Assembly (NCBI GenBank): GCA_029851415.1
Contig: CM056742.1
Location: 76,994,748-77,058,747, forward strand
Length of the DNA stretch: 64,000 nt
Reading direction: 5' to 3'
Origin: Eretmocerus hayati
Taxonomy: Eukaryota; Arthropoda; Insecta; Hymenoptera; Aphelinidae
Positions 11,454 through 64,000 of the stretch are shown piece after piece. The notes under the pieces were generated by a model. The model was not told the origin of the DNA and ran no database searches. It was given only the letters and a program-made list of their open reading frames with translations. A program made the translations under genes and the position numbers. Positions within the stretch are counted from its first letter, which is position 1, and the number at the start of each line of letters is the position of its first letter.

Positions 11454-11454
11454 G

Positions 11455-15532: not shown

Positions 15533-18500
15533 CTGTGGTTGAGTAATGGATTGATTCATCTATGAGTGTGAATCGATTAATTGAGGAGGGAATATGTATA
15601 TGGAACGAATAGAGAAGGGATCGGTTGGTCCCCGATCAATGTATTCAAGGAAAGAAGATAGAGGGAGAGGAAAGGATATTTATATATTTTTGGAAATTTA
15701 CCTTCTCGTTCCTCCTCATTCTCATGATCACAAGAAAACGTTGCCAAGGGTTCCGTAATTCTCGATTCTTCATGGCTTGGACTCGTCGGGACAAGAAAAG
15801 GAGTATCGATCAGTGGAGAATCTTCTCCGTCTGTGGATGAAAAAATTAATGAATGAATAAACTAGAGTTTGAGTAGAAGAATTGACCTCTCGATTTCCGT
15901 ACGTCGAAACTATAAACGCTTCTGGATACGGGGCTTTTTGAGTCTTTGGCTTCTAAAGAGTCGTTTAGAAACCATGGAATCGTTTTCTTGTGTGTGCACT
16001 AGCCCGCGTTTCATCTGTATGCTGTCGGGGTTATGAATGAGCGGAAACGTGTGTGTGCGCACGTACTTGCGTTTTCGCGCATTTTTCTGGCAATGACAAA
16101 TTATCAAACTATGGTGCACTTTCAAAAAGTGGAACATAGGTCAAAATCGAGGAAGCGAGCCCAAAATTGACGGGCCAAAGGCTCTCTGGAGTGCTTTTTC
16201 TCACATGTGTGAGGTGAAGTTGAGAAATGCAAATATGATTGGGTGAGACACGTATCTGTTCTCGTGGATGCACACGATGTCAAATTTGTATCAAACTCTA
16301 TCATAGAGGGTGTCCCAAAAGTCAGTTCCCCCTCCCAAAAACTCAAAATTTGCTCCAGGGAAACAAAAAACCCCGAGACACGTGTCTCTTAATATAGAGG
16401 GGGAAGCTTGAAAATGGTCTCAGATTTGACCTTGAATGTGACCTTGATGGTTTTTTTATAGAGGTTAGATCGGTTTTCCTGAATGGAAACTCCTACTTTT
16501 GACTCTGGATTCTGAAAGTATACAAAATTTCACGTCCAAATAGTACTATTTGACGATTTTTAGTTGACCTCTAGGGGTCATATTGAGGTCAAAAGTATCT
16601 GGAGGGTGGATTAACGTAATAGACGTAGTGCGATGGTCTTGTTCTGAGAGGTTTCTCTCAGAAAAATTCATCAGCCTTATTCTTACCCTTGACCTGTGGA
16701 CTTGAACTGACTTGAACTTGACTCTCAACTGAACCTTGACTCTCAAAACTCAAAAATCGCTAAGGGGTATCAGAAAACCCTGAAATATGTGTCTTTCAAA
16801 GTCGAGGAGGGAGGTCGAAAATGCTCTCAGATTTGACCTTGAATGTGACCTTGATGGTTTCTTAGGGGTTAGATCGGTTTTTGTAATGGAAATCCCTATT
16901 TTCGACTCTGGGCCCTGGGGATGGAACAAATTTTGAGCCAGATATGACTCTTTACCAATTGCGTATATGACCTTCAAAGGTCATCTTGGAGTCACAAATC
17001 TCAGAACCCAGGGTCAAGATATGACTCTCTGGGCTAATCGCGAATGAGATCATTTTCAGGGCCCAGGGTCAAAAAGAGGGGTTTCCATTACAAAAACCGA
17101 TCTCAATTCCAACAAACCATCAGGGTCACATTCAATGTCGAATCTGAGAGCATTTTCGAGTTTTCTCCTCGACTTTGAGAGACCCGTATGTCAAATTTTT
17201 CTGATACCCTGAGCCATTTTTGAGTTTTGAGAGTCAAGGTCATGTTCAAGGTCACAGGTCAAGGGTATGAATAAGGCTGAGGAATTTTTCTGAGAAGAAC
17301 CCTCTTAGAACAAGACCATCGCACTAGGTCTGGTACCCTAATCCACCCTCCAGATACTTTTGACCCCAGAATGACTCCTAGAGGTCATCTAAATAATCAG
17401 CAAAATGTAGTATTTGGACGTGAAATTTTGTGCTCTTCCAGAATCCAGCGTCAAAAATAGGGTTTTCTATTTGAAGAAACCGATCTAACCTCCAAAAAAC
17501 CATCGAGGTCGCAGTCAAGGTCAAATCTGAGACCATTTTCGAGCTTCCCCCTGGATTTTAGGTGACACGTGTCTCTGGGTTTTTCGATCCCTGGAGCCAA
17601 TTCCGAGTTTTTAGAGGGAGGTGAACTGACGTCTGGAACACCCTGTATATTCCTATCCACAGAGAAAGTAAGGGGATCTGATACTCAAGATTGATGATAT
17701 CTGAGTAAACGTACTTGATAGTTCTGAAACGTATTCATCATGCTGTGAAGTGTCCTTTCCAGTATGTACAGTTTTAACACCATTTCCATGCCGTTGCCTA
17801 GCTTGCATTCGGGGTCGCACACTCTCATCTGACAGAGCAGCAGTGCCTACATGTTTTCGTTTGTTCCCTCGTTTTGATGGTGCTTGGTGAGATATTCGTG
17901 CATGGTCTTCTTCAGATTCATCGCTTGGAGGAACTTCACGATTCTTCTCTTTTGCAGTTGATGTGGCACGTGCACTTTGACGAGCTTGTGTGCGAGTCGT
18001 TGCTCTTGCCACTTTAGTTGAAACTAATTGCGCACCTCTTTTGGTTCCCTGGTTTGTATTCTGAATCAAGTCAGTATCAGCATTTATGGAATCTGCAAGT
18101 AAAAGATAGTAACAATTTAGTCCGAATCAATTTCGCTGAGAAGATACTAAATGATACAATTTCATCAAAACAGACGTAAGGTAAGTGTACTCAACATGCC
18201 CCCGCTTGAGCAGTTTTGCCAATAGTTTTGATCCCTTCCAATTCAAGATTTTTCAATGTACTCTATCACACTTCGGAGCTTGTCCCAAGTCCTTCAAAAT
18301 GAATTGAGATGAGTTCAAATCTGTTCAACCAGAGCCAACCTCCCACAATTTCTCCAAAAAGTGATTTTTCGTGAGTTCGCGGAATGGTGTACCCAACACG
18401 CCCACATTTAGCAGTTCTCTCGACGACTTTGGTCAACTCCAAAATTTCTCAATGTACATTTAATGAATGAATTTATCGTTCTTTTGAGCCACTTATAATC

Positions 18501-21500
18501 GCCGCGCACAGTCGGCAATCACAGTTCGACAAATGTCAAACTGCGACCTTCGGGGCCCACTTCTATAGTGGCTGGATCACGAAAGGGTTTTTTATTTTTT
18601 TTTTTTTTTTGATTTAAGAATTTTTTATTGAAAGATTGATCGAGAGATGGAAAGATTTTTCCTCGGGCAGGACTTGAACCTCGCAATCTCCGGTATTCCG
18701 GACCGATGCCTTTACCATTTAGACCACCGAGGCGATTGCGTTTTCACTCGCTCGGGGAAGCCTTTTCTCATCTCTGTGTCAACCATTCGATGAGTTCAAT
18801 CAAGGAACCATGACCAATGAAATATTCATATTATACCGATAAGGTAGATCTTGTCGATATTTTGGCTCTATCGCTCGATTTGATAAAATAGATTTGATGA
18901 ATGAATTCATCGTTCTTTCGAGCCACTTATAACCTCAATGTACTTGAGCCTCTGAAGTGAGTTGAAGGACGTCTCATCTCAATCATGGAAGGTCGAGCTA
19001 TCTTAATTACCCCACAAGTGAAACAATGTCGATTGTGGGTAAATTAGATTGAAATATTTTTTCCGTTCCTATCACCGTGCTACCACATTTGCCGATCCAA
19101 AATACTATCCCGGCCTATTTCGACGTGATCAATACGTTCAGAGTAATGAAAAAAGTCATACTGCACGCTCTTTCGAGATAACTATATGGGTGGTAGGTTG
19201 GGTGTACACCAATTTTATGGCTTTCAGTTTTGCGAGTGATCTCCGTATTTTGCTTCTGAGATCGGTAAAAATCCAAGTTTAACAACTCAATCAAATGGAT
19301 ATCGAATATCTAGAAGAAAGGAATCAAATCCACCAAAGTAAAATGAGATTCTTCGAAGCGAAAAATTTTGGCACCGTTTTTACTATCCGCAATTTTGTTT
19401 GCGATTTCTGAAGTGTGCAAACTCGTCAAATGCAAAAACTCACTTCATAGCCTCTAATAGTCGCACAGATCATTCGGGGCCGATCGAAATCATTCATTGT
19501 TTCAAGTTTCAACACAACGAACGTGAAAAAATTTCGCGGAGGACAACCAGCGCCCAGTTCTGAAATCGGCTCATGAGGGTATGTTGGGTACTCTTACGAA
19601 TAGACTACATCAAATTCTCGTATAACCTAGCCATCATTGATAGAATTATGCAAAGACAGTTGGAAATCTGAAATTCAGCAATTTAAAATGAGCATCCAAA
19701 ATCATGAGATCTAATCAGTCGGTGAAATGTGATGTAACAAAGTATATATCTGGCGTCAATGTTTACAAATTTTACACTTTCTAACAATCAGTGGCCTTAC
19801 TCGGGACATTCATGAGTAATCACGCCTAGATCTCGACCATTTGGTCATCGATGATTCTATGCATTTTGAAAATCACTTCTAAAGCAAAAGACCAATTCTA
19901 TGACGGTCCTCACAATATATTTGAACAAAAATTGAATCGATTGAAAACAAAAAACGATGGGATCAACGGGATCGGTTCTCGTCAAGACTGGCTTCTTCTG
20001 ATCTCGTACAGTCTATAGCCCAGAATGCTACTCTGCATCTAGTTAGTATGAAAAAAGGAACGGCTTCGTCTATTTTCAGATAAAACTCCCAACTAAGTTC
20101 TTCGATCATGTTTTCGAAATTTCTCAAGAATATTCATAAGCTCACCGACGCTGTCATCGCTGTTCCTTTCCTCATCTGATGTCTCGGTAGATCCTTCAGA
20201 ATCCGATGCTGAGTCAATCTTAGGAGCTTTCTCACGTTGGTTGTTAGAAGTCTGACTGCTTCCTGGTTTCATAACAAGGGGATGAAAAGCTTGATCGATT
20301 TCATATGATTACATCTTATAAGCTGGTGACATATGCTTATCACTCAGACGGAGTGAGATTCGTCAGTTGAACTTGTAGTTATGGAATCATTTTGGATCGA
20401 GGATGAGGAAATGAATGCTTCTCTGACTATTCAAGGGAAGCCATGTTATGGGTGAACTAATGTGAGTATGTATATTGGTCTTGAAATTCTAATAAAAATC
20501 AGTTACAAAAGTGAAAAACTAGATGCAACCGTCATTTTTATCAAACAAATGGCGTAGTTTGCATTTGCGTTATAGAAAAAATCTATGAGGTGATTGGCTA
20601 GCCAGGTGTTTTGAGAATGAATATTATTCCAACGTTGTTATTGTGATGTATACAAATTCAAATAATCGTCGAGCCCAGATATTCGGATACCCGTAATTGA
20701 CTTTCAAGCACTCAGATCCTTCGTGAAATGCGATAAATCTACACATCTTTTGCCACTATGGGAAAGTCGAAGCAAATCCCTCTCCGACAGGCAGAATTCT
20801 CTGTTTTTGAGTAGGATAACAATTAGCACTGTTCATATTCACCTTGTTCAGCATCTCTGTACGTGATTCTCCGATACGCTCTCCTTTGTATCTCTACAAT
20901 TAATAATCATTGCGCCGTATTATTAAAAGATTCGTTCAGGGAATAGCTATGGTTAGAGAAATATTTTTAAAATCACTCATTTATGTGTGTTCGAAATCAA
21001 TTGAGACAGCGGTGGGGAAATTACAAAAATGAGTAGTACGATAAAACTCGTAGCATGAATTGATTTCAATATCTCACTATATATTGGCAACTCACGGACA
21101 GGCTCGGGTGGAGTGTCATCATCTGATGCTTCGGCCTCAGCTTCAGCTGCTGCTTCAGCTGCAGCAAGTTGTCTCTGACGTTTCGCCAGTGCTCTCTTAA
21201 GCTGATCACGTTCTCGAATTTGTCTCAGAGTCAGCAACAGATCCTTGTTGAATTCGGGATCTTTAGCTAACGAAGTTCACGAGTCATAATTTATCATCAA
21301 ATTTCCAATAGGATTGATGAATTTTGACGTCCCAATGAAGAACGGTGGATGCATAATGGCTTTGATGCATATAGCAGAGGAATAGTTCAATAGCAAACGC
21401 ATGCCTGGTATTTATCTTGTGGGGGTATCGGAGTTGTTGAGGAACAAATTTACAGATAACAACTCCAATGGCCTGTCATCTTTGTGTTCATCTCGTGCAA

Positions 21501-24500
21501 TCTTTTGCTTCATCATTGTGGAACTGTTAAAGTGTCGACTCGAGAATTTGACGCAGTCTCTCACTATTTGATAGCCAAACTGAAGAATCTTTGATTTTTT
21601 TATCCACCGATTTTGGAAGCAGATGCCAAAATATGTTAGCTTATGCAGACGCGTTGGGAGCTCAGTCCAAAGAGTGACGTTCCAAGCTCGAAAGATCTTC
21701 AGACAGCTTACGTCGAGTCGCAAGCTAACTTTATGAAGTTTTTCTAAATACTGATTGAGAGAGCTAGTGATGAATGAAACCTTGCCAAAAACCAGTTGAT
21801 TGACAAATACATTTGAATTGAGTTGTTGAATGTTAAATCTTGAAATCCGTATAATCAATCTAATAGTCAAAATGATAGCTAGGAAGTGATTATCTTGAAC
21901 GATTTGGCACGAGCGAAGAGAGGGGTCTGTGCAACGCTTAGATTGATGGAAAAAATGGCTCCGTGTTTGGAATAGTCACATTTTAGATGTATTGGTTCCA
22001 ACTCACTTGGGTGCATGAGATTTGACGGTGTCTCGGTCAATCGTTCTTCAACAGAATCCAATAAATCTTCAGCAACTGTTGAGATTTTCAATCCCCGGCT
22101 TTTTTTCAGACGTGCTATCGCCTCAATAAATTCAGAGACAGGATAGTTAGCCTCAGGATCTTTGAACATCCTCCAAGCTAGGGAACAAATTATTCAGATG
22201 AGCAGCGAAATACATTGTCAATGTACAACTATTCGTGAAAGCATTAGTTCAATATAGATATGAATGAGGCCTTATGATGAGTAGACAGTCTACATATTTG
22301 ATAATGAGATTTGATTTTATTGTGGGGTGTTCCCGTATCAATTCGTACATCTCCCAAGTTTTTCGCAAAGCTCTTAGAGTATTTGAAATACAAAGAGGCA
22401 ATGCAATCAGGAAGAAATAAACGAAGATAATGATTTTGTGCTGTACCTTCGAAAATTTGATCATTCTTCACTGAGGCTTGATAGCTTGGCCAGGCACAGG
22501 TTTTGACCAGGTTCCTTGTTTGCTCTATGATGCGACGATTGCCCATGAACTTTTCAGTTATCTTCACTGGAATGATGATTAAAATCCAAAATACGATATC
22601 GTTAATTTTTATTGCAGAGAAAATTTTAGAAGCACATAGACGCGAAGTACGTAATTTATTGCTCCCTACAGTTGAATCAGTTCTCCAGATATCAAAATGT
22701 TGGATGAAATTGCTTATAAGAGATGAGATTATGTCAAAGGAATGACGATGTAGGGCCTGAGTGTCCACCGATTCGAGTTGAATGTCCTAAGAAAGGCAAG
22801 TAGAGTGTACCGAAACAATTTGACATGACTCAACTCACCCATGAAGATGGCAGCTGGTGGTTGTTTACCGAGATCAGTCTTCAGGACATTGTTATTGCAC
22901 TCACTACCATTATTGGTCCTCGTGCGCAGACCATAAACGGTGAAACCTAGAGGAGTAACGACCTTCAGCCAGTAGTCTTCGAAGTAGTCTGTGACAGGGG
23001 CGAAGAATTCTTTGAAATCTCCGTCCATCTCGGCCAACTGACGGTCGAACTCATCCTCCGCCCACTCAGGGGGTAAGTAAGCAATTGCCAGCAAATTCCT
23101 GACTGCATCATCAAACTCTCTGGTGTTATCGGCTTTCTTCCTGTACGGGAGGAATTTCCTCAGAATAGCCTGAAATGGGAGGACGGTCGAGTATGAATAT
23201 ACCGGAACACATTCTTGAGAACAATCGTGCACAACAGGTGTGAAGCGATAAACAATAAGTAGACTCGTTTGCTTAGTATAGTATCATGCTGAGTTCATGG
23301 TTGCAAGTACCATGCTAGTGTCTCTGAATTCCAATATTTTTAGGAATTGGGAATTATTCTTAGTATCATAATTTTTTCATGCGATCGAATTTAATGGGTG
23401 CCTTGGATTCAGCGAACGATTCCAATCAGGTTTTACCACTTTGCTTCTCACGGTGATATAACTCCTGTCCCAAAGTGTGTGCACAAAACCTTGAATATTT
23501 CTATAGAAACTTACACCTACCCTGTCAAAATGCTCATTGCAGCCTACTATCCTTACATTCGGGAAAGTCATTGCAAATCCATTGCGGAGGGCTGGCTCAA
23601 AGTCACCGATGAAGAGCTCAAGCTCAGAAAATGGGCATATGCTCTTCAGATGTTTGAAAGCACACTTATATGCCGCCGTAGTTTTCGATGACATGCAGCA
23701 GTAGTAAATGCAGACAACCTATGAAGAGAGATTGGATTATGGATTGTTCTGAGGTAACTCAAGATACTCTGTCTTATAACCACATCAACTTCTACATTGA
23801 TCCATTAGACTCACCTTGTTCTTGTATACAATCAAAATGGTGAACAGTTGATACGAGTTCGTGAGTTTCACGCGCACAAAATAGGTTGCATCAGCCATCA
23901 TTTTTTTCACCCCGGAAAAATGTTTCTTGATCATATTCTTCTCACAAAAAGCGATGTGTGTATCCTTTCCTTTTACTTTAGATCCATCGACAAGGATGTC
24001 TGCTGAGACCTCATATTTTCCATTGTATTTCAAAATCTTGTCATACTCCCCAGCTTTAAGTTGTTGTGCAAGTGTCTCCATGTCGTTCGGGCACTTAGGA
24101 AAATTTTGCAAGCGACTTCTGACAAACGTCGAATATTCACGGTGTTCGGATGTTAAAGTAGCACCAACGGGAAACCTGGAACCAATAACGTAAGGTATCA
24201 GCCGTATTATATAGAAACTGACTCTCGCTTATGGACGCCGAGGAATTTGAGACTCTGTCAAATATCCAAGCAAAACAATGCATCCATGAAAGAGTTTGAT
24301 GCTATGTGATTTGTGAAAAGATCGAGCTATCATGCGCGACAGTGTAAAGAGATGTGGGTATCATGTAGACAGTCGTCAGGTCACTCAGGCAGATTCAGAC
24401 TCACTTTTTGGCAGCTTCGTCGAACAGGGGACCCATTTTCCAGTAATTCTCCTGGTTTGCTTGGTGCATGTACTCTTTCAATTCGTAAAGCTCGTCTTTG

Positions 24501-24975
24501 CCGTCAGGTTCACACCACGAGCTGTAATCTTTGTTGGGCCACAGCTCGTCCTGGCCATCCAACAGAGTCGCACTGCCTCTGCATCCATTTTTTTTATTGT
24601 TCTGACAGATGAAATACCTAAAAAATTGAACGACCTATAATGGAAAAAATCTCAATGCCGGTTTCTCCGGAATTGATTGAACAGGTTCACCACAGTTCCG
24701 CAGATAGTTCACGGCTTAGTTCCCGGACGAGTGAGATGAGCTTAAGGCACAGCAAAATTCAGAATTCGGTCAAATTTCGAACTAGGCACTCTTCAACTAT
24801 GACGATTTGAGAGCTATACAAAAAAACCGCGAGGTATTGTGCGACAGATTTGATGACTCAACAAAACTTACGTAATTTTTCCTTTTTTTCCATTGTTGAC
24901 GAGAGTCCTCCCGTCAAGCCTCCTATAGATTGTCCTGAGTGTGTTGTAATGCTTCTTTGCACCGACCTGTGCCAT
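15353..24975 (-). CDS. MULE (Mutator-superfamily) transposase, left copy
   Basis: Mirror copy of the right-arm gene. Exons on the - strand: 24872-24975, 24405-24617, 23815-24175, 23521-23718, 22839-23169, 22447-22566, 22007-22177, 21096-21266, 20146-20262, 17715-18092, then two further phase-matched exons 15702-15830 and 15353-15532 outside the visible palindrome (824 codons so far, no stop). D201, D265 and E382 are intact. Compared with the right copy it differs at V195 (A), K226 (E), R316 (K), F348 (S) and L522 (V). It reads leftward, away from the axis. Exons 6 to 12 all begin and end in phase 1. The intron between exons 10 and 11 carries the 16306-17645 foldback element. The 3' end is uncertain; a further candidate exon lies at 14730-14893. 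Confidence 0.82.
15702..15830 (-). CDS. MULE gene exon 11 (left copy tail)
   Basis: Acceptor ...CCACAG and donor G|GTAAAT frame a 129-nt exon. It enters in phase 1 exactly as exon 10 leaves. The peptide starts NGEDSPLIDTPFLVPTSPS and ends in an acidic run (ENEEERE). It matches the composition of the preceding tail exons and is the first part of the gene with no visible partner in the right arm. Its function is unknown; it looks like disordered tail. Confidence 0.7.
16306..17645. mobile_element. 1.34-kb foldback element with TA flanks
   Basis: Ends GAGGGTGTCCCAAAAGTCAG and, in reverse complement, CAGGGTGTTCCAGACGTCAG, each flanked by TA (16304-16305 and 17646-17647). Almost the whole length is a diverged inverted repeat with ~650-bp arms: the block GTCTCAGATTTGACCTTGA appears near 16417 and its complement near 17520, and a second pair lies at 16827 and 17140. 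TA flanks fit the Tc1/mariner superfamily, but there is no transposase, so assignment is by target site only. It sits in the intron between MULE exons 10 and 11, just outside the visible palindrome. Confidence 0.8.
18458..18933 (-). mobile_element. SINE-containing element in MULE intron 9, left arm
   Basis: Mirror of 62782-63257, flanked by the 10-bp duplication CTCAATGTAC at 18448-18457 and 18934-18943. It carries ~40-bp terminal direct repeats, a tRNA-like block and a T-run (poly-A on the other strand). Confidence 0.75.
18660..18733 (-). ncRNA. tRNA-like sequence (SINE head), left arm
   Basis: Mirror of 62982-63055 with the same defects (C33, bulged T stem). Confidence 0.7.
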
Positions 24976-29065: not shown

Positions 29066-31764
29066 AATTGAGGGGGTGGGTGGAAAAAGGGCCTAAGTGC
29101 ACTTAGGCCCTTTTTCCGGCCTACCGCTTTTTTGAACCCTTGAACCATGATCTATCACCCCATGAAAGTTGTTTTTCCACAAACTTCGAAAACCCCATGG
29201 ATCAGAAAAAGGGCCTAAGTGCACTTAGGCCCTTTTACATATTCGATAAAAGGGCCTAAGTGCACTTAGGCCCTTTTGTCGATTATATGATGGGAGTTAC
29301 GCCCTTTTATCGATTGTATGATGAGAGTTAGATCCTCTGTCTATTATCTGAAGGCAGTTAGACCCGGCTAGACTCCTTGGACAGCTAGTTGTACAGTTTT
29401 GATGGGTAAGAACGAATCGCCTAACTACGATGCTGCACCATATTGGACTCGAATGGTTCGCCAATCATTTTGAAGAGAAAAGCATGACCTCACTATTTCG
29501 TAAGCTTTGAGTGGGGAAAGAGCTTTCTAACGTCCCAAGGTCATCTCTGTGTCGTACGGTGTTTTAAGTAATCCTCCAAAAAAGTTGAAAATCGGCGTTC
29601 CATTAGTAAAATCGTGTTTCGATGGATTTCAATGAAACGACCTGATTTTTTATTCAACATATCTTCGGAACTCGGACAAATAGGAGAGCAGTATTCTTAT
29701 ATCGACAACCTGTGATTGAGGCCTCTAAGAAAATTGATAAAACATAAGAATTGATTTCTAACCATGTTACCTGTAATCAAGACGTTAGTTAACTACTTCA
29801 TCGTGTTTGCCGGGTCATGTTACAGCGAAAACGGTTTCGAAAACTATCTGTCTTGGCGGTGGAAAGTGATCAAAAATGATCTTTGAAACAAATTTCAATC
29901 CAGTATTTGCATCTCTTGTGCATGCGCGTCTTCTGATGTCTCTAAAAGTAATTTCAATTGATAGCCGCCTGGTGTAACTCACTTCAGAATGGTCACTCGA
30001 GGAAGTCGGTTTGACGCGTCAGATCACGAGATCTAGCTGGTCCAAAAAATGAAAAACTCCAAGGTATCGAGTCCGTGAACCCGCGGCTCCTCCAATGGAC
30101 GCCAAGAATGCGAATTTTGAGTCGGATCGTTCCCAAGACGTGAACATGTGTTTTTCGTATATTTTCTGATGTAGAAACCGAATCCGTGGTCAGTTTCGTC
30201 CCCAACCTTCAGGATTATCTGGTAGGCTCGAATGGAGTAAGATAGGCTAAAGTAGGTTCAAGAAACGAGATCAAGTAAGAAATTGATTGGGCCCCATTCA
30301 CTGTGGCGCCCGAAAATCGGACTCGCAACGGGAGTTCGGAGGGTCCGGGTCATCATACCTCACTAAACTTTTTTCACAGTCTCGTACCACCTAGAAAATG
30401 GAGAATCCAGAGTGACTCCCTCAAATGGGCCTTCTGTCCAGAGCTACAAGCAAAAACGTAAGAATTGCCCATATAGGCCCATGTCAAAAAGTGATATATA
30501 TATGGGTATACTGGCAATGCTAGCGCTTTTGCTTGTAGCTCTGAAATGAAAGCCCATTTGATGGAGTTACTCTGGATTCTCTATGTTCTAGGTGGTACGA
30601 GCCTGTGGAAAAAGTTTGGTGAGATTTGGTGACTCGGACCCTCCGGACTCCCCTTGTCAGCGTGAGTGTATTTCACGAGCACGATTTCTCCATACATAGC
30701 TATTTTCTGGAAAATCATAACTCCGACAGATTGGATTTCTCATCTCATCGTTGTTTGACTGGGGAAACTAGACACCTCCGAATCCCCCTCAAGAGATTAT
30801 AACAATGAGACTCCGGAAGAGAGTTTTGTTTAGGAATCGAATCTCAGCACGAATGTGACTATGTAAAAGGGTCTTATCACTGCAGAGAGAGGTACCCACA
30901 AAGTCACCAAGACCTCGAAGATTTTCTAAAAGAGCCCAAACAACAGGAAAATTTTGTTCAAAAAAAGGGCCCAAGTGCAAGGGTATTGTTAAAAAGAGCC
31001 TCAACGTAGAAGTACTGGTAAAAAGGGCCTGAGTGCAACAGTATTGGTGAAATGGGCCTAAGTGCAACATTATTGGTAAAAAGGGCCTAAGTGCAACAAT
31101 ATTGGTAAGAAGGGCCTAAGTCACCGGAAAAACTCGTTCAAAAGGGCCTAACTCCACTATCGATATCGGGATAAAGGGCCTAAGTGGTGGAGTATTGGTA
31201 AAAAGGGCCTAATTTTTTACGAAAAAAATTCAAAAAAATTCTTATGACCTCCATATCTCTTTTCTACCAATTCTGGCTATCAAATCATGTTTTTTGGCCT
31301 TCAAAAAATGTATCTTCATACTTGCTAAGTGAATATTGAGTGACCTCAGTTTCACACACTCAATGGAACCATCTTCCACGTGCAGAATCGATGAAAATGC
31401 ATTAAGACGTTGAATTGCAATTGTATATCTTGTGTGACATACCCATAGATATGCTGATGAAATTTGGAGGCCATTGAACTCGATTTCGCAACGTTATCCA
31501 ACTTTTAGTGGACCAACTATCCCAAAAATTGACCCAGTATTGGGAAAAAGGGCCTAATTACATTTTTTCGAATGGCTGTATACCTCTCAAAATCGACAGC
31601 TATTTTCCAATTCCTGTGCGGTTGTTTTGGGGATGCCAAAACCTTTGAAATAAGCCAGGTATGCGCATCGAATCATGCCACGGGCATGATATAGTTAGTT
31701 TTTATCGTTTTTCTCAAAATGGCCGTTTTGTAATTAGGCCCTTTTTCCACCCACCCCCTCAATT
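29066..31764. mobile_element. TIR element, copy 2 (left arm)
   Basis: Mirror of 49951-52649. TIRs AATTGAGGGGGTGGGTGG, with AAT on both outer sides (29063-29065, 31765-31767) as a possible 3-bp target duplication. Confidence 0.85.
29984..30888. mobile_element. Insertion nested in TIR element, left arm
   Basis: Mirror of 50827-51731, with the foldback at 30327-30654. Confidence 0.65.
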
Positions 31765-34189
31765 AATAGTCGTTGCAATGGGTTTTGAAGAAAAGCGTGT
31801 ATTAATCCAAGCTTAGCCTCTTCAAATTGATCTTTAGTATATCGAAGCCACCTGAGTTTACAGTTACGAGAATTAATTTGGGGTTCGGGGGAAGAATTTC
31901 AGCTCAAGACGAAACAGCATCACATTTTCAGAGAATATTTCAAAATCGATACGACCATATCCGTCACCGAGCTTTGAAAAAATCGCGTTGCTGTTCAAAT
32001 AAGAATTTCGATATTGGTATGACTTGTAGTTTTGGTGGGAGTATTTGACTTTTGAGAAAGAAATTTTAGCTCAGGGCATCAAATGCTGCTGACTAAAGGA
32101 TTAATTCAATCTCAAGGTCCTGAAGTACTGTGGTTATATGAATATTTCAATTTTATGAATTGTTCCCTCTCCAATTTGCATGTTTAAGTAGCATTTGATT
32201 ACACATAACAAATATTTCTTCACCAAATTCTTCAATGCGATTCAGTTCGAGCCTACACACTCTTGAGAAGTACTTTTTAAATTAGTCTTCATTCCCTCTC
32301 AAAGTTTATGACAAATTTCGTTAAACTGTGATTTCGTAACATCATGAGGATTACAAGAATAGCCTCTCTCCATCGAATTTGTATTGAGGTGAAGTGTGAA
32401 GTTGAAACTCGAGTATATGTGATTGACTTGCTACCAATTTTCAATCATCAATAAAATAACAAATGGAAGTCCAACCTCTGAGATTGTATACAGTGCTCAG
32501 GGCAGAAAGTTGAAGTATTTCACAAAATTGATCCTTGGGATAGATACTCACATTGGATACCGTAAACCGGGGTGACTATGGCCACTTTGGAGCTTCTAAT
32601 TAAATTCTCATTGCGATTATTCAACCATACTTCTATTCTTCAAAATGTCGTGCTCAGAATTCAATTTCAGTCATTTGCATTCTTAAGAGCTGTAAAAAAT
32701 AGGGCGGCATCCAGGGTGACTATGACCACGTTCGTTGAGTAGTTCAGCAACTCAAGCCAAAAAAAGCATAGTTATATTGAGCACGGATTTCAAATGTTGA
32801 ATTTATAAATAAGGATGTATAGTTTTACAATATTTGGATGAAAAAAAATTGCAAAAAATTTGCACCCAATTTCAATCTTTTTGGAAGTTCTAAATTAAGT
32901 AACCTGATCATGTATCGAACAGTGTGTAAAAAATCCTAAAATATAAAATTCAATCACTTCAGCCTCTGCCCCAGTTTTACAACTTTTTTGATGAAAAAAA
33001 ATTGCTAAAATTTTGAAAACGGAGTTTTCCCCGCGTCCTGCAATACCGACTGATCGCTCCGACTGATCCGTCCGCGCATACGATGCACGCGGACAAATCA
33101 GCGCGTCGACGCGCGTACAAGTCCAATGTAGACGACCCCCCTGGGGGGTTATCTTAAATTCGCGCTACACGCTGAGCGCGTACCAAGCTGTACGCTGGGT
33201 TCCGCGCTCAAAACGCGCCAGCGCGTACCTATTCATTTACGATAACCCCCCAATGACGCAACTGCGGACGCAACATTGCAGTCATCAACAGTCATAACCT
33301 AATTCATGTTGACAACAATTGCATCAAATTGTATTTATAGTCCTACATGTGTCAAATTGAAGCCCAAATTGTCTTTGCAGAGATTTCGTGAGTCCGCAGT
33401 GGAATGATTGGGTTAAAGTAAAATTACGTATTGTGTATTTATAGCTATTGACCCAGATGCAGGCTGAACAACTGCCTCAGAGTAACAGTTTTGATATCTA
33501 TAATGCAGAAAAGAAGAACATAACGGTTGCAACAATGTAGAAATTTTGTAGAGCTACTTCAGTGGCATTTCTTTCTATTGAGCGTATGAGATATTTGTTA
33601 TCAACAAACACTCGAAAATGCAGGGATATCCGTCGAAGCAGGAAAGATAGGTTCACCATGAGATTTTGAATTACTCACTGGATTGATATGACGGGAGTTG
33701 GCAAGGGAGGAACAGGATCAAAAGGATGCTGCTGCTGGGTCGAAGAGAATGTTCTCGTATCCACGCTCGGCTGGATAACTCTACCACCTCGCGATCGTTG
33801 GACTAGTCAAAAATATGGCACAACGACGATGATGCCTTCTTTCTCATTCTCGTGCTGCGTTTCCCAAGCGCCACTAATTTGATTCAGATGCTCTTGATTT
33901 TGAACGGAAATCTTGCCACTGCTCCGCAAAAATTTCACCGGTAGTTACAGTCTAGAGGTTAAGCTGAATAAATGGTGAGAGGGTTTGTAACAACTTGGAA
34001 TGTTACCATAGCAACCGAATTGCATTGTTCCAAACCATCAGATTGCGATTTTTATTAGGACGTTAAATCATCATTCCTGGAAGGCGGTGGTCATGGTTGA
34101 GATTTCAGAAAAGACTCATTTGATAAACAAATTTCATGTAAAATTGATAGAGAAATAAATGCCGCTGCGGAGTTTTAAAATGATTGTTC
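31765..34189. other. No gene seen (left arm)
   Basis: Mirror of 47526-49950. Holds the short CpG-rich TIR element at 33142-33252 and otherwise unassigned AT-rich sequence. Confidence 0.45.
33142..33252. mobile_element. 111-bp CpG-rich TIR element (MITE-like), left arm
   Basis: Mirror of 48463-48573. Confidence 0.7.
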
Positions 34190-38813: not shown

Positions 38814-39099
38814 TGAATTGTGTTGAAAGTAAGTAAAAAAAATGTGCGAAGTCCCGAAAAGCGCTTAAATGGCTCGTGAAAATTCCGGTATTGACCCAAA
38901 CAAAGTATTCAAACGGGAAAGTGTGGTCGTTGGATAGGTGCAAATTATAAGCCAAAGTAGGATCTTCTAGGGCTAATGGTTTAGCTGTTAGCTAATAAAC
39001 AATGCCAAAAACCAGCACTCTTCCGATAATTTTTCTCTTAAAAAATTTAGCCTGTCACCATCACTTTCCCATGGAATCGATAGAACTCGATCTTAGACA

Positions 39100-39614: not shown

Positions 39615-39623
39615 TCGAGGCAG

Positions 39624-42038: not shown

Positions 42039-42041
42039 CAT

Positions 42042-42700
42042 ATCTTCCCGCGAAGCTGAATTTGAAGCGCGCGAGTTGGATATTTCTAATTGCGGCCTCG
42101 AGTCGCTTCTCCACAACTCCCCCCCCCCCACTCCTCGGCGCCCAATCGAGAAGGAGCGGCATCCCTCCACCAAGTCACCAATACTTTATACGCTCCCCGT
42201 TGGTTTTGTTTTATTTGTAGCGCGTAGCTCTATTCTTTAAAGCATTATCCCCCCATTCTTAAGGTATGTCCTCTAAGCTTATTTATTAGATGCAATAAAT
42301 GAGGGTCCTACGACTTTTCGAACAAAAAACGTAACTCACCCTCAAATGGTCGGGGTGGGTGTTTTTTCCTCGAAATTCGTAGAAAGATCCTATCTATCCT
42401 GAATAGTCATCGGTTCTACAATGCAACAATAAGTGACGGAGTAATTTCATCTGTTTATAGAATCAAATGAAGCGTTGCGGAAATCGCTCTATTTGAACAA
42501 TTTAGACATGGACAATTACGATGCTTTGATCATAATTTGATACTTGAAGCTTGTTATCTTCCGAATCCCCGAGCTTAGCGCTGTCTGACTGGTAGAAATG
42601 GAGTTGCTGAGTATTAAATATTGATGCGTTTCAATAAACGCATGAAATAACGCAAAACTATCCAAGCTACCGATCTGGGGAAGAGCACGCATATACAGTC
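42042..42700. repeat. Older inner palindrome, right side
   Basis: Partner of 39100-39614 and 40336-40386 (for example CTTCCCGCGAAGCTGAATTT at 42044). It contains a G/C-rich patch (about 42115-42165) that the left side lacks, and it preserves the uninterrupted version of the foldback insertion site. Confidence 0.85.
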
Positions 42701-42901
42701 TGATTCATTAAGTGTGTACATGCCATAACCGGGATGTGGGAGAAAATTTGTATTTTCAAACGAGTTAGTTGTGAAAATTCGTAATAGCTGTCGGAATTTG
42801 TAACTTTTGATAGAAATATGATTCTTAATCATTACATTTGAAATGTTTGGAAGCGGGTGCCAACTTCACACGCGTAATGGTGGTCCATTGGTGGTGGTAA
42901 C

Positions 42902-44704
42902 GGTGGTCCATTTCGGACTATTCGATATTGAGAGCCTCCTCAACACAATCATATTTTTAGGCCTGAAACTTTAATTTTTTCCCAAGCCAACCCGAATTCT
43001 CCTAGACTATAGTAGCCATGCAGACTCTTCAGTGCCAAAGTCTATCAAGCGGTGCCCGACGCTGGTGTTTGTGGCATCGGAGCGTCCTGTCACGAGTATA
43101 TATGGGGCACTTCCTAATATAGTGTCGGCAGGGGCGGGGGGTGGGGTCTGAGTATATGGGCGACTCGTGTATTTTGAGGCCCTGAATCGAATGCACGAGG
43201 TCGCCAGCCCGAAAACCCCGGCGTTCTTTTGTTATTAACAATTTTTAGTGCAAAATTATGGTTTTCTGCAGAAAACTCGGAAGATATGTATGCATTTTAA
43301 CGAAGAGTTTTACGGAATCAAAGTTGTAAAGCACAAAATTCCTTACAAAAAATTCCACACAAGTTTACTGGAAAACCCAACCCCTAAGCGAGAAATGCGC
43401 GAAAATCTGTTCGCGTGTTCAACATAGGCTTATATGGGGTGGCCGACGCAGCGCTATTTAAGTCTTTACCACCTTGCCATTTGTCAATTTATGGCTAGGA
43501 GACCAAGTACACCTTGAAGAGAACGGAATTTCCCTAAAAATGGTCACTGTCCAATTCCGCCAAAATCAACTCCTTTGGCTGTGGAGCGAGAGAAAGAGAC
43601 CATACAAATACTTTTTGGCAAAATGCTATTCCTGCAGCAAAACTGCTGGCGCGCGGTGGCAAGGGCGGCCGAGTCGCACGCAGCGCTGCAGTACAACTCC
43701 AGCCTCAGAATCTGCACTTTTCCTTTTTCTACCGCGTCACACTCGAAGAGGTTCGTAATTAGCGAGATATACGGAAGAAAATTCATGTAAGAGCTCCAAA
43801 AAAAAAAACTAAGTGAAGCCTGGAATAATCCACTCATTCAACTTTTGGCATGTCAGAATAACAACTGTGGAAGGTAAAATGATATAGGTGAAGACTGCGA
43901 ATAAGAGAATCATCTCGATCGAGCCTTATATCGCTAAAACACAATACAGGGGCGTTCTACTTTCAACGCGGTATTCGTCATCGCGGTTCTGCTTATACGC
44001 GGTTCTTGGAATCCACCTTTTTATTCAATGTGGTTCAAGACTTATTGAATGCGGTTTTGAATTTGAGTTGCCTCGATCAGTGCTTCGAGTCACTCAATAA
44101 GAAAGGCCCTCAACGTGACTTCCAACTTTCATTAGACGTTTCATTTTTTCCTCTGCAATCCAAAACTCTTGCATATCCAGATACCCGCGTATATTTTGAG
44201 TTATGCTTGTTTCGAGACATGTGATCTTTATATACATTTTTTCGCCATCCGGACATCCGGATATACGAGAAGTATCCGGATGATTTGTGGATAGTCCCAG
44301 TAATTTTGAAACAGTAAGGGTTATCGCTAAAACAGATGCTTTCACGTGTTTTGGGGACCAAAAACACCTGCTTATGCGATGACCCTCAGTCTTTCAAAAT
44401 CACGAGGAAAAAATTCTCGCTGTTGCAGGGTATCTAGATATGCTTTCCCGACGCAGATGACCACCCGAACACGATTCCGTGCTACGTATTGAACTACCAC
44501 GGGACGATTTTCGTATACGTCACAAAACCGCGAAAGAAACGATTTTTCGTGATTTGGAAAAAATCCCGACGTTCTGGCGCAGTTCTGGACTCGAATACGG
44601 GTTTAGCGCCGGATAGTAATACGTAAGGAAATCATGGTTTGGTCAATACGACATTCCGGCCTCAAAATTTTTTTGTGCAGTGATATCATGGTGTCCACCG
44701 AACA
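42902..44704. other. Inner part of right arm, no gene seen
   Basis: Contains a locally GC-rich patch (about 43640-43700) and ATCCGGA-rich sequence near 44250. Open frames here are short and have no recognisable domain. The mirror is 37011-38813. Confidence 0.45.
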
Positions 44705-56739: not shown

Positions 56740-59700
56740 ATGGCACAGGTCGGTGCAAAGAAGCATTACAACACACTCAGGACAATCTATAGGAGGCTTG
56801 ACGGGAGGACTCTCGTCAACAATGGAAAAAAAGGAAAAATTACGTAAGTTTTGTTGAGTCATCAAATCTGTCGCACAATACCTCGCGGTTTTTTTGTATA
56901 GCTCTCAAATCGTCATAGTTGAAGAGTGCCTAGTTCGAAATTTGACCGAATTCTGAATTTTGCTGTGCCTTAAGCTCATCTCACTCGTCCGGGAACTAAG
57001 CCGTGAACTATCTGCGGAACTGTGGTGAACCTGTTCAATCAATTCCGGAGAAACCGGCATTGAGATTTTTTCCATTATAGGTCGTTCAATTTTTTAGGTA
57101 TTTCATCTGTCAGAACAATAAAAAAAATGGATGCAGAGGCAGTGCGACTCTGTTGGATGGCCAGGACGAGCTGTGGCCCAACAAAGATTACAGCTCGTGG
57201 TGTGAACCTGACGGCAAAGACGAGCTTTACGAATTGAAAGAGTACATGCACCAAGCAAACCAGGAGAATTACTGGAAAATGGGTCCCCTGTTCGACGAAG
57301 CTGCCAAAAAGTGAGTCTGAATCTGCCTGAGTGACCTGACGACTGTCCACATGATACCCACATCTCTTTACACTGTCGCGCATGATAGCTCGATCTTTTC
57401 ACAAATCACATAGCATCAAACTCTTTCATGGATGCATTGTTTTGCTTGGATATTTGACAGAGTCTCAAATTCCTCGGCGTCCATAAGCGAGAGTCAGTTT
57501 CTATATAATACGGCTGATACCTTACGTTATTGGTTCCAGGTTTCCCGTTGGTGCTACTTTAACATCCGAACACCGTGAATATTCGACGTTTGTCAGAAGT
57601 CGCTTGCAAAATTTTCCTAAGTGCCCGAACGACATGGAGACACTTGCACAACAACTTAAAGCTGGGGAGTATGACAAGATTTTGAAATACAATGGAAAAT
57701 ATGAGGTCTCAGCAGACATCCTTGTCGATGGATCTAAAGTAAAAGGAAAGGATACACACATCGCTTTTTGTGAGAAGAATATGATCAAGAAACATTTTTC
57801 CGGGGCGAAAAAAATGATGGCTGATGCAACCTATTTTGTGCGCGTGAAACTCACGAACTCGTATCAACTGTTCACCATTTTGATTGTATACAAGAACGAG
57901 GTGAGTCTAATGGATCAATGTAGAAGTTGATGTGGTTATAAGACAGAGTATCTTGAGTTACCTCAGAACAATCCATAATCCAATCTCTCTTCATAGGTTG
58001 TCTGCATTTACTACTGCTGCATGTCATCGAAAACTACGGCGGCATATAAGTGTGCTTTCAAACATCTGAAGAGCATATGCCCATTTTCTGAGCTTGAGCT
58101 CTTCATCGGTGACTTTGAGCCAGCCCTCCGCAATGGATTTGCAATGACTTTCCCGAATGTAAGGATAGTAGGCTGCAATGAGCATTTTGACAGGGTAGGT
58201 GTAAGTTTCTATAGAAATATTCAAGGTTTTGTGCACACACTTTGGGACAGGAGTTATATCACCGTGAGAAGCAAAGTGGTAAAACCTGATTGGAATCGTT
58301 CGCTGAATCCAAGGCACCCATTAAATTCGATCGCATGAAAAAATTATGATACTAAGAATAATTCCCAATTCCTAAAAATATTGGAATTCAGAGACACTAG
58401 CATGGTACTTGCAACCATGAACTCAGCATGATACTATACTAAGCAAACGAGTCTACTTATTGTTTATCGCTTCACACCTGTTGTGCACGATTGTTCTCAA
58501 GAATGTGTTCCGGTATATTCATACTCGACCGTCCTCCCATTTCAGGCTATTCTGAGGAAATTCCTCCCGTACAGGAAGAAAGCCGATAACACCAGAGAGT
58601 TTGATGATGCAGTCAAGAATTTGCTGGCAATTGCTTACTTACCCCCTGAGTGGGCGGAGGATGAGTTCGACCGTCAGTTGGCCGAGATGGACGGAGATTT
58701 CAAAGAATTCTCCGCCCCTGTCACAGACTACTTCGAAGACTACTGGCTGAAGGTCGTTACTCCTCTAGGTTTCACCGTTTATGGTCTGCGCACGAGGACC
58801 AATAATGGTAGTGAGTGCAATAACAATGTCCTGAAGACTGATCTCGGTAAACAACCACCAGCTGCCATCTTCATGGGTGAGTTGAGTCATGTCAAATTGT
58901 TTCGGTACACTCCACTTGCCTTTCTTAGGACATTCAACTCGAATCGGTGGACACTCAGGCCCTACATCGTCATTCCTTTGACATAATCTCATCTCTTATA
59001 AGCAATTTCATCCAACATTTTGATATCTGGAGAACTGATTCAACTGTAGGGAGCAATAAATTACGTACTTCGCGTCTATGTGCTTCTAAAATTTTCTCTG
59101 CAATAAAAATTAACGATATCGTATTTTGGATTTTAATCATCATTCCAGTGAAGATAACTGAAAAGTTCATGGGCAATCGTCGCATCATAGAGCAAACAAG
59201 GAACCTGGTCAAAACCTGTGCGTGGCCAAGCTATCAAGCCTCAGTGAAGAATGATCAAATTTTCGAAGGTACAGCACAAAATCATTATCTTCGTTTATTT
59301 CTTCCTGATTGCATTGCCTCTTTGTATTTCAAATACTCTAAGAGCTTTGCGAAAAACTTGGGAGATGTACGAATTGATACGGGAACACCCCACAATAAAA
59401 TCAAATCTCATTATCAAATATGTAGACTGTCTACTCATCATAAGGCCTCATTCATATCTATATTGAACTAATGCTTTCACGAATAGTTGTACATTGACAA
59501 TGTATTTCGCTGCTCATCTGAATAATTTGTTCCCTAGCTTGGAGGATGTTCAAAGATCCTGAGGCTAACTATCCTGTCTCTGAATTTATTGAGGCGATAG
59601 CACGTCTGAAAAAAAGCCGGGGATTGAAAATCTCAACAGTTGCTGAAGATTTATTGGATTCTGTTGAAGAACGATTGACCGAGACACCGTCAAATCTCAT

Positions 59701-62700
59701 GCACCCAAGTGAGTTGGAACCAATACATCTAAAATGTGACTATTCCAAACACGGAGCCATTTTTTCCATCAATCTAAGCGTTGCACAGACCCCTCTCTTC
59801 GCTCGTGCCAAATCGTTCAAGATAATCACTTCCTAGCTATCATTTTGACTATTAGATTGATTATACGGATTTCAAGATTTAACATTCAACAACTCAATTC
59901 AAATGTATTTGTCAATCAACTGGTTTTTGGCAAGGTTTCATTCATCACTAGCTCTCTCAATCAGTATTTAGAAAAACTTCATAAAGTTAGCTTGCGACTC
60001 GACGTAAGCTGTCTGAAGATCTTTCGAGCTTGGAACGTCACTCTTTGGACTGAGCTCCCAACGCGTCTGCATAAGCTAACATATTTTGGCATCTGCTTCC
60101 AAAATCGGTGGATAAAAAAATCAAAGATTCTTCAGTTTGGCTATCAAATAGTGAGAGACTGCGTCAAATTCTCGAGTCGACACTTTAACAGTTCCACAAT
60201 GATGAAGCAAAAGATTGCACGAGATGAACACAAAGATGACAGGCCATTGGAGTTGTTATCTGTAAATTTGTTCCTCAACAACTCCGATACCCCCACAAGA
60301 TAAATACCAGGCATGCGTTTGCTATTGAACTATTCCTCTGCTATATGCATCAAAGCCATCATGCATCCACCGTTCTTCATTGGGACGTCAAAATTCATCA
60401 ATCCTATTGGAAATTTGATGATAAATTATGACTCGTGAACTTCGTTAGCTAAAGATCCCGAATTCAACAAGGATCTGTTGCTGACTCTGAGACAAATTCG
60501 AGAACGTGATCAGGTTAAGAGAGCACTGGCGAAACGTCAGAGACAACTTGCTGCAGCTGAAGCAGCAGCTGAAGCTGAGGCCGAAGCATCAGATGATGAC
60601 ACTCCACCCGAGCCTGTCCGTGAGTTGCCAATATATAGTGAGATATTGAAATCAATTCATGCTACGAGTTTTATCGTACTACTCATTTTTGTAATTTCCC
60701 CACCGCTGTCTCAATTGATTTCGAACACACATCAATGAGTGATTTTAAAAATATTTCTCTAACCATAGCTATTCCCTGAACGAATCTTTTAATAATACGG
60801 CGCAATGATTATTAATTGTAGAGATACAAAGGAGAGCGTATCGGAGAATCACGTACAGAGATGCTGAACAAGGTGAATATGAACAGTGCTAATTGTTATC
60901 CTACTCAAAAACAGAGAATTCTGCCTGTCGGAGAGGGATTTGCTTCGACTTTCCCATAGTGGCAAAAGATGTGTAGATTTATCGCATTTCACGAAGGATC
61001 TGAGTGCTTGAAAGTCAATTACGGGTATCCGAATATCTGGGCTCGACGATTATTTGAATTTGTATACATCACAATAACAACGTTGGAATAATATTCATTC
61101 TCAAAACACCTGGCTAGCCAATCACCTCATAGATTTTTTCTATAACGCAAATGCAAACTACGCCATTTGTTTGATAAAAATGACGGTTGCATCTAGTTTT
61201 TCACTTTTGTAACTGATTTTTATTAGAATTTCAAGACCAATATACATACTCACATTAGTTCACCCATAACATGGCTTCCCTTGAATAGTCAGAGAAGCAT
61301 TCATTTCCTCATCCTCGATCCAAAATGATTCCATAACTACAAGTTCAACTGACGAATCTCGCTCCGTCTGAGTGATAAGCATATGTCACCAGCTTATAAG
61401 ATGTAATCATATGAAATCGATCAAGCTTTTCATCCCCTTGTTATGAAACCAGGAAGCAGTCAGACTTCTAACAACCAACGTGAGAAAGCTCCTAAGATTG
61501 ACTCAGCATCGGATTCTGAAGGATCTACCGAGACATCAGATGAGGAAAGGAACAGCGATGACAGCGTCGGTGAGCTTATGAATATTCTTGAGAAATTTCG
61601 AAAACATGATCGAAGAACTTAGTTGGGAGTTTTATCTGAAAATAGACGAAGCCGTTCCTTTTTTCATACTAACTAGATGCAGAGTAGCATTCTGGGCTAT
61701 AGACTGTACGAGATCAGAAGAAGCCAGTCTTGACGAGAACCGATCCCGTTGATCCCATCGTTTTTTGTTTTCAATCGATTCAATTTTTGTTCAAATATAT
61801 TGTGAGGACCGTCAAAGAATTGGTCTTTTGCTTTAGAAGTGATTTTCAAAATGCATAGAATCATCGATGACCAAATGGTCGAGATCTAGGCGTGATTACT
61901 CATGAATGTCCCGAGTAAGGCCACTGATTGTTAGAAAGTGTAAAATTTGTAAACATTGACGCCAGATATATACTTTGTTACATCACATTTCACCGACTGA
62001 TTAGATCTCATGATTTTGGATGCTCATTTTAAATTGCTGAATTTCAGATTTCCAACTGTCTTTGCATAATTCTATCAATGATGGCTAGGTTATACGAGAA
62101 TTTGATGTAGTCTATTCGTAAGAGTACCCAACATACCCTCATGAGCCGATTTCAGAACTGGGCGCTGGTTGTCCTCCGCGAAATTTTTTCACGTTCGTTG
62201 TGTTGAAACTTGAAACAATGAATGATTTCGATCGGCCCCGAATGATCTGTGCGACTATTAGAGGCTATGAAGTGAGTTTTTGCATTTGACGAGTTTGCAC
62301 ACTTCAGAAATCGCAAACAAAATTGCGGATAGTAAAAACGGTGCCAAAATTTTTCGCTTCGAAGAATCTCATTTTACTTTGGTGGATTTGATTCCTTTCT
62401 TCTAGATATTCGATATCCATTTGATTGAGTTGTTAAACTTGGATTTTTACCGATCTCAGAAGCAAAATACGGAGATCACTCGCAAAACTGAAAGCCATAA
62501 AATTGGTGTACACCCAACCTACCACCCATATAGTTATCTCGAAAGAGCGTGCAGTATGACTTTTTTCATTACTCTGAACGTATTGATCACGTCGAAATAG
62601 GCCGGGATAGTATTTTGGATCGGCAAATGTGGTAGCACGGTGATAGGAACGGAAAAAATATTTCAATCTAATTTACCCACAATCGACATTGTTTCACTTG

Positions 62701-64000
62701 TGGGGTAATTAAGATAGCTCGACCTTCCATGATTGAGATGAGACGTCCTTCAACTCACTTCAGAGGCTCAAGTACATTGAGGTTATAAGTGGCTCGAAAG
62801 AACGATGAATTCATTCATCAAATCTATTTTATCAAATCGAGCGATAGAGCCAAAATATCGACAAGATCTACCTTATCGGTATAATATGAATATTTCATTG
62901 GTCATGGTTCCTTGATTGAACTCATCGAATGGTTGACACAGAGATGAGAGAAGGCTTCCCCGAGCGAGTGAAAACGCAATCGCCTCGGTGGTCTAAATGG
63001 TAAAGGCATCGGTCCGGAATACCGGAGATTGCGAGGTTCAAGTCCTGCCCGAGGAAAAATCTTTCCATCTCTCGATCAATCTTTCAATAAAAAATTCTTA
63101 AATCAAAAAAAAAAAAAAAATAAAAAACCCTTTCGTGATCCAGCCACTAAAGAAGTGGGCCCCGAAGGTCGCAGTTTGACATTTGTCGAACTGTGATTGC
63201 CGACTGTGCGCGGCGATTATAAGTGGCTCAAAAGAACGATAAATTCATTCATTAAATGTACATTGAGAAATTTTGGAGTTGACCAAAGTCGTCGAGAGAA
63301 CTGCTAAATGTGGGCGTGTTGGGTACACCATTCCGCGAACTCACGAAAAATCACTTTTTGGAGAAATTGTGGGAGGTTGGCTCTGGTTGAACAGATTTGA
63401 GCTCATCTCAATTCATTTTGAAGGACTTGGGACAAGCTCCGAAGTGTGATAGAGTACATTGAAAAATCTTGAATTGGAAGGGATCAAAACTATTGGCAAA
63501 ACTGCTCAAGCGGGGGCATGTTGAGTACACTTACCTTACGTCTGTTTTGATGAAATTGTATCATTTAGTATCTTCTCAGCGAAATTGATTCGGACTAAAT
63601 TGTTACTATCTTTTACTTGCAGATTCCATAAATGCTGATACTGACTTGATTCAGAATACAAACCAGGGAACCAAAAGAGGTGCGCAATTAGTTTCAACTA
63701 AAGTGGCAAGAGCAACGACTCGCACACAAGCTCGTCAAAGTGCACGTGCCACATCAACTGCAAAAGAGAAGAATCGTGAAGTTCCTCCAAGCGATGAATC
63801 TGAAGAAGACCATGCACGAATATCTCACCAAGCACCATCAAAACGAGGGAACAAACGAAAACATGTAGGCACTGCTGCTCTGTCAGATGAGAGTGTGCGA
63901 CCCCGAATGCAAGCTAGGCAACGGCATGGAAATGGTGTTAAAACTGTACATACTGGAAAGGACACTTCACAGCATGATGAATACGTTTCAGAACTATCAA
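56740..64000 (+). CDS. MULE (Mutator-superfamily) transposase, right copy, 3' end beyond window
   Basis: Ten exons fit by GT-AG sites and phase: 56740-56843, 57098-57310, 57540-57900, 57997-58194, 58546-58876, 59149-59268, 59538-59708, 60449-60619, 61453-61569, 63623-64000 (721 codons, no stop). The start ATG has context AAATGG and follows an in-frame TAA. Residues ~20-75 resemble a FLYWCH finger (YFIC..., GCRGSATL), but only the Cys pair (C39, C47) is clear; the usual HxH is not visible. The MULE core has D201 (MADATYF), D265 (FIGDFEPAL), C286/H289 (GCNEHFDR then AILRKF) and E382 (TRTNNGSECNN), so the DDE triad is present. Residues ~500-550 form a coiled coil with an Ala/Glu-rich run, followed by acidic then basic Ser/Arg-rich tail exons. 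For exon 4 a second donor at 58201 is possible, adding two codons. The enzyme would act in the nucleus on transposon ends. Whether it is an element gene or a domesticated one is unresolved. Confidence 0.85.
62782..63257 (+). mobile_element. SINE-containing element in MULE intron 9, right arm
   Basis: Flanked by the direct repeat GTACATTGAG (62772-62781 and 63258-63267). Its two ends are direct, not inverted, copies of a ~40-bp sequence beginning TTATAAGTGGCTC and ending CATTCAT.AAAT, about five substitutions apart. The interior has a tRNA-like head (62982-63055), then a 16-A tract ending near 63120, then an unrelated ~95-bp segment. A 10-bp target duplication is within the range of Mutator-type insertion as well as SINE retroposition, so the mode of insertion is unclear. 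Confidence 0.75.
62982..63055 (+). ncRNA. tRNA-like sequence (SINE head), right arm
   Basis: Cloverleaf-like: acceptor GCCTCGG/CCGAGGA with 6 of 7 pairs, D stem GTCT/AGGC, anticodon stem TCGGT/ACCGG, and B-box AGGTTCAAGTCC. C replaces the universal U33, the T stem has a bulged G, and a poly-A tract follows. This favours a tRNA-derived SINE over a functional tRNA. Confidence 0.7.

Follow-up and report, generated by a model that had tools for sequence, protein, structure and literature searches.

Large genomic palindromes are well known, and so are inverted segmental duplications and fold-back inversions. In experiments with yeast single-stranded DNA (cdc13-707fs), inverted repeats underwent similarly high rates of rearrangement whether they were 12 bp or 30 kb apart, and among the conditions described there only heterology above 25% suppressed the rearrangement (PMC10164571). 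Inverted duplications at induced breaks can start from inverted repeats as short as 5 and 11 bp, for the most part in yeast deficient in Sae2 or Mre11 (PMC10622511). Among invertebrates, palindromes have been reported for Adineta vaga, Folsomia candida, and eight further parthenogenetic animals with one to four each, among them the ant Ooceraea biroi with two gene-order palindromes (PMC7953838, Table 1). In the accessible passages of the open-licence literature on palindromes in parasitoid wasps, Hymenoptera, and insects, no near-identical wasp palindrome at the kilobase scale was recognised. The stretch of DNA analysed here (64,000 nucleotides; henceforth the window) comprises positions 76,994,748 to 77,058,747 of contig CM056742.1 in the assembly GCA_029851415.1 of the wasp Eretmocerus hayati. 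It contains a palindrome that carries a MULE-like transposase gene in each arm and is, on balance, best regarded as a young inverted duplication formed by fold-back.

The two arms (Table 1) are visible over 21,099 bp and differ by 22 substitutions (0.104%) and not a single indel. Paired coordinates add up to 81715 from the outermost (17715/64000) to the innermost position (38813/42902), and the register never shifts. The sum, the lack of a net indel, and arms of at least 21.1 kb had already been reported in a preliminary description of the locus, which had counted only 13 differences instead of the actual 22. Neither outer arm end is visible, and 21,099 bp is a lower bound on arm length. Large palindromes are understood here as arms of more than 10 kb that are more than 99% identical and inverted about a spacer; at this locus, the visible arms are 99.9% identical and flank a spacer of 4,088 bp. 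An inverted identity over 21 kb was taken to need no chance model.

The inner boundary of the arms is sharp. Between the last mismatch (36974/44741) and the arm ends at 38813/42902, identity is unbroken for 1,839 bases, and from 38814 onwards 1,499 of the 2,044 spacer positions (73%) are mismatched in arm register. The substitutions comprise 17 transitions and 5 transversions; five of the 22 touch a CpG in one arm. Runs that are prone to changes in length (16 T at 18595, 11 T at 37907) are equally long in both arms because there is no indel between them. The window contains no N and therefore shows no scaffold gap where the arms are joined; its GC content is 39.8%, and its observed/expected ratio of CpG is 0.95 (not depleted).

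The spacer harbours an inverted repeat of its own, whose copies align over 499 columns with 84.4% identity and are 2,602 bp apart. They are apparently the terminal repeats of a decayed element. A duplication by fold-back should be centred on an inverted repeat, and this one is nearly co-axial with the palindrome. The 11-mer that ends the arm at the left junction (AATGGACCACC) recurs within the spacer close to the right junction; no match in 3000 first-order shuffles exceeded 9 bases. On the assumption that the spacer repeat started with two identical copies, it is more than 100 times more diverged than the arms and would predate the duplication, provided that the low arm divergence is not due to conversion. 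The spacer element also contains short direct repeats (40842–40898 and 41938–41994; 81%) that include GGGTGGGTGGGTGG-like and CATATG-like sequences.

The sharp inner boundary, the 0.1% divergence of the arms, and the much higher divergence of the spacer element are best explained by a recent inverted duplication, and the co-axial spacer repeat together with the 11-mer at the junction suits a fold-back of single-stranded DNA primed at a microhomology. As far as the assembled sequence alone can tell, the palindrome is, somewhat more probably than not, genuine: a segment of an insect nuclear chromosome that was duplicated in inverted orientation by fold-back in the recent evolutionary past. This is also the best-fitting of three readings offered in the preliminary description; the analogy to sex-chromosome palindromes would not suit a haplodiploid wasp, which the host probably is, and lasting conversion has found little positive support.

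From the anatomy of the locus, which is directly observed, the steps of pairing, priming, and resolution may be inferred as follows. A broken or stalled chromosome would expose single-stranded DNA, in which the inverted repeats of the spacer (84% identical, 2.6 kb apart) could pair and fold back the strand. The free 3' end would then anneal at the short homology at the arm end and prime reverse copying of the adjoining sequence of at least 21 kb. A second event would restore a stable chromosome, and the 22 substitutions would have built up after the duplication. The divergence and spacing of the spacer repeat fall into the range found to be permissive in yeast (PMC10164571), and short homology at the junction is likewise a feature of yeast fold-backs (PMC10622511). 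No dedicated function is evident for the palindrome, which in effect adds a copy of a transposase-type gene and creates a site where inversions and gene conversion are likely.

Several points weigh against a fold-back origin. The additional 11-mer is present only on the right side, and the best match at the left edge of the spacer has 5 bases. Although copying would be expected to begin at the long repeat itself, the arms start farther out, by 285 and 207 bp, with an 11-bp homology at the right junction instead; a separate microhomology step must therefore be assumed. The near co-axial position would, by a rough estimate, arise by chance in about 2% of cases for one repeat; this probability rises when the remaining inverted repeats of the spacer are included, and insertion of the element into an already existing spacer of about 490 bp would make the position trivial. 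The yeast precedents come either from cdc13-707fs mutants or from induced breaks, mostly in cells deficient in Sae2 or Mre11, and the repeats of 5 and 11 bp were separated by only 35 and 6 bp rather than by 4 kb (PMC10622511). Fold-back explains neither the resolution of a dicentric or hairpin intermediate nor the concentration of arm differences in the gene region. In addition, the outer ends are out of view, and the duplication could be a product of the assembly. Homologous recombination between the spacer repeats as the sole cause was dismissed on logical grounds: it would yield arms that extend across the repeats, but these are only 84% alike and lie within the spacer.

It is unlikely, but to be taken seriously, that two haplotypes or two separate copies of the locus were joined head to head via the spacer during assembly, in which case the second arm would be absent from this position. 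Substitutions at a level of 0.1% look like allelic differences, and a multi-copy gene provides repeats that could confuse an assembler. Moreover, the palindrome list of Jaron et al. includes false positives caused by misassembly (PMC7953838), and Nowell et al. regard some breaks of collinearity as possible scaffolding errors (PMC5916493). However, the k-mer heterozygosity given for E. hayati (ca. 0.01%) is below the difference between the arms (PMC10482854), and zero indels in 21 kb, including T runs of equal length, were judged unusual for two haplotypes. The absence of N leaves the window without a visible scaffold join, a 4.1-kb spacer of different sequence would not result from a missed adapter or a mirrored read, and neither the microhomology at the junction nor a co-axial inverted repeat is expected of a join between haplotypes. 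The preliminary description was right in using the substitutions as an argument against a mirrored read, an argument that does not extend to haplotypes joined head to head. A scenario that retains fold-back, but is decidedly unlikely, casts the locus as an actively amplifying region, where a transposase-derived gene, present in at least three copies, is multiplied by repeated fold-back at inverted repeats borne by transposable elements (TEs), as a germline counterpart of the fold-back inversions in cancers, with arm-to-arm conversion just setting in at the inner arms.

It appears improbable that the palindrome is old and that ongoing gene conversion between the arms maintains their similarity, as in mammalian sex chromosomes. 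Such conversion would account for the contrast between the very high identity of the arms and the 16% divergence of the spacer element, and insertion of that element into an old, small spacer would account for the co-axiality. It could also yield inner arms that are more alike than the outer arms: the outer 7,261 bp (17715–24975) contain 15 of the 22 differences and the inner 13,838 bp only seven (binomial p = 0.0014, a flattering value because the cut at the gene start was chosen after the data had been seen). The spread of the differences is uneven also by a Kolmogorov–Smirnov test (p = 0.0037); if split by halves, the outer half again holds 15 of the 22 (one-sided p = 0.067), and the longest gap free of differences is by itself not unusual (0.19). 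By contrast, identity is undiminished up to the sharp inner edge. GC content is slightly higher in the arm than in the flank (0.400 versus 0.394; more precisely, 0.3998 versus 0.3943 for positions 1–17714 or 0.3904 for positions 1–14633, with 0.3963 in the spacer), but part of the flank may belong to the arm, and the difference is small relative to the scatter among 2-kb rows (0.370–0.434). In primate X palindromes under GC-biased conversion, arm GC is reported to be significantly higher (PMC8981503). The rise is in the direction expected of conversion but lends it little support, and a young palindrome would show little anyway. The possibility that the locus is itself a mammalian sex-chromosome palindrome was ruled out by the CpG ratio of 0.95 and the homologue from a wasp. 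Still less credible, indeed very improbable, is a duplication via transposition of a MULE-like element, with the arms as two inverted copies of one element. Each arm carries a transposase-type gene of which a third copy exists, but the inner arm end (38813/42902) lies 13.8 kb upstream of the gene start, and these 13.8 kb were duplicated as well; the self-comparison of the window, the only search made for terminal repeats, lists no repeat that touches 38813.

The differences within the gene region (17715–24975 versus 56740–64000) have a peculiar composition: 11 of the 15 oppose A/T to G/C, and A/T is on the left in ten of these 11; in the inner arms, A/T is on the left in three of seven. Conversion by another copy of the gene family is a possible source of the differences in the gene region.

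The left copy of the gene was modelled with ten exons and nine introns, which are all GT-AG and in phase, yielding 764 residues. There is no stop in this copy before its end and none in the visible part of the right copy. The product matches the Pfam family MULE (PF10551) with 24.7 bits (E = 3.1e-05), and the gene is named only MULE-like because this score lies below the curated cut-off of 27.6. The motifs DAT, DFE, and NNGSE, which are presumably the catalytic acidic residues of the transposase, are present in the gene copies of both arms. A search of 5.8 billion protein sequences returned two proteins at E ≤ 0.001 among 7,994 candidates scored. One of them, P0001 (875 aa, encoded on a contig of 122,604,546 bp), belongs to a cluster of four members on one contig; it scored 24.6 bits against PF10551 in the scan, whereas the precomputed annotation of the database does list this family. 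The other, P0002 from E. hayati (Aphelinidae), is 43% identical over 66% of the query and the only named relative found. Both proteins have FLYWCH matches, likewise below the cut-off.

P0001 is not encoded in the window: of 640 aligned residues, 12 differ in the left copy and 14 in the right, and 11 of these differences are common to both. It represents a third, more distant copy of the gene, and its cluster probably belongs to the same genome as the window. When P0001 was used as query, further exons were recognised in the window down to 14634. The stop that closes the tenth exon (17653–18092) probably reflects an alternative reading that continues beyond a splice site used in the model of P0001. 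The gene probably straddles position 17715, and the right copy, if complete, would continue past 64000. A protein search with one exon gave no match, and a profile of P0001 and P0002 recovered P0001 alone at E 0.001 and missed even P0002. Pfam scans of 17001–42912 in six frames and of 1–14401 in two of six frames yielded nothing at E 0.01 but were insensitive, having missed the known MULE stretch, and carry no weight as negatives; a scan of twenty single open reading frames (ORFs) gave only matches below the cut-off, including a weak one to MULE. The AlphaFold model of P0001 was not used (mean predicted local distance difference test score, pLDDT, 29.9). A bacterial, phage, or plasmid origin of the window was ruled out by the intron-bearing gene, its insect homologue, and the short ORFs, the longest of which with an ATG, GTG, or TTG start encodes 174 aa in the entire 64 kb.

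At a hymenopteran rate of about 3.5e-9 per base and generation, the 0.10% divergence of the arms would correspond, as a rough estimate, to an age on the order of 150,000 generations. The 11 differences from P0001 that are common to both arms, together with only five differences between the arms over 744 residues, indicate that the arms split or were last homogenised well after the split from P0001. P0001 polarises four of these five amino acid differences, one of which is derived in the left arm and three in the right; the fifth sits in an exon that is absent from the model of P0001. Six arm differences fall into exons of the modelled part, and five of them change an amino acid, too few for a test of selection.

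Table 1. Features of the palindrome and its surroundings, in window coordinates.
Feature	Position	Strand	Remarks
Left arm, visible part	17715–38813	+	matches right arm up to window edge; may extend further left
Spacer	38814–42901		4,088 bp; not palindromic in arm register
Right arm	42902–64000	-	reverse complement of left arm; runs off window at 64000
Spacer inverted repeat, left copy	39099–39597	+	84.4% identical to reverse complement of 42200–42694
Spacer inverted repeat, right copy	42200–42694	-	axis 39–41 bp from palindrome axis
Self-palindromic insert resembling a miniature inverted-repeat transposable element (MITE)	39622–40324		82%, ca. 0.7 kb; adjoins left inverted repeat
Arm-end 11-mer AATGGACCACC at left junction	38803–38813	+	
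Extra copy of AATGGACCACC	42879–42889	-	12 bp inside spacer from right junction; arm copy at 42902–42912
MULE-like transposase gene, left copy	14634–24975	-	10 exons at 24975–17653; further exons recognised with P0001 to 14634
MULE-like transposase gene, right copy	56740–64000	+	cut by window end; 5 amino acid differences from left copy over 744
tRNA-like sequence	18659–18733	-	mirrored at 62982–63056 (+); A-rich stretch follows

The window contains several other repeats and elements. The tRNA-like sequence in the arms is probably the head of a tRNA-derived short interspersed nuclear element; a search with ARAGORN found no tRNA. A dispersed element is present in inverted copies of about 91% identity in the left flank (2488–4332) and in the arm (29066–31771), with the arm copy about 0.9 kb longer and including a self-palindromic insert (30326–30656). 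Another element with long inverted repeats (ca. 82%) is located just left of the visible arm (16303–17648), between exons of the transposase gene according to the mapping of P0001. The left edge of the window is occupied by a tandem array (74–1778) with 4.6 copies of a 371-bp unit that are about 75% alike. On the minus strand, a stop-to-stop ORF of 174 aa without a Pfam match (6943–7467) may correspond to the C-terminal part of the reverse transcriptase of a long interspersed nuclear element, which it is taken to resemble.

The locus differs in several respects from the known systems that it resembles. In contrast to the fold-backs of yeast and cancers, it is germline and interstitial, has a 4.1-kb spacer that reaches 207–285 bp beyond the inverted repeat, and is not accompanied by a loss of the chromosome end or a dicentric within the window; the short homologies in yeast are 6–35 bp apart. 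With mammalian X and Y palindromes, it shares arms of tens of kilobases with about 99.9% identity, a spacer of a few kilobases, and genes within the arms, as far as these are described (PMC3723533, PMC8981503) and generally known, but GC is little elevated, the gene is of the transposase type, and the host is probably haplodiploid and lacks such sex chromosomes. The palindromes of A. vaga, F. candida, and other parthenogens also consist of inverted collinear blocks on one invertebrate scaffold (PMC7953838), but those are gene-order blocks, with wide-ranging synonymous divergence (Ks) in F. candida (PMC5490193), whereas the arms of E. hayati are near-identical DNA with one recognised gene. Only the small self-palindromic inserts (39622–40324 and 30326–30656) resemble the large MITE-like palindromic Tc1-Mariner elements of a seed beetle, which are described with sizes of 0.7–2.2 kb (PMC10849321) and are too small to account for 21-kb arms. 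The inverted chimeric copies produced by whole-genome amplification and treated by Pacasus are read fragments (PMC6218980), whereas the palindrome of E. hayati has 22 substitutions and a 4.1-kb spacer in an assembled consensus.

Within the known kinds of palindromes and fold-back inversions, this locus is notable for its youth and for the inverted repeat and microhomology in its central part. If it were a product of the assembly, it would be a useful caution regarding palindromes in insect assemblies. If real, it would represent a very young germline palindrome outside the well-studied sex chromosomes of mammals, with a probable priming site that is still readable. It would then provide a test in an insect of whether large inverted duplications originate from divergent TE-borne inverted repeats, as is the case in yeast, and it could show the speed at which arm-to-arm conversion sets in.

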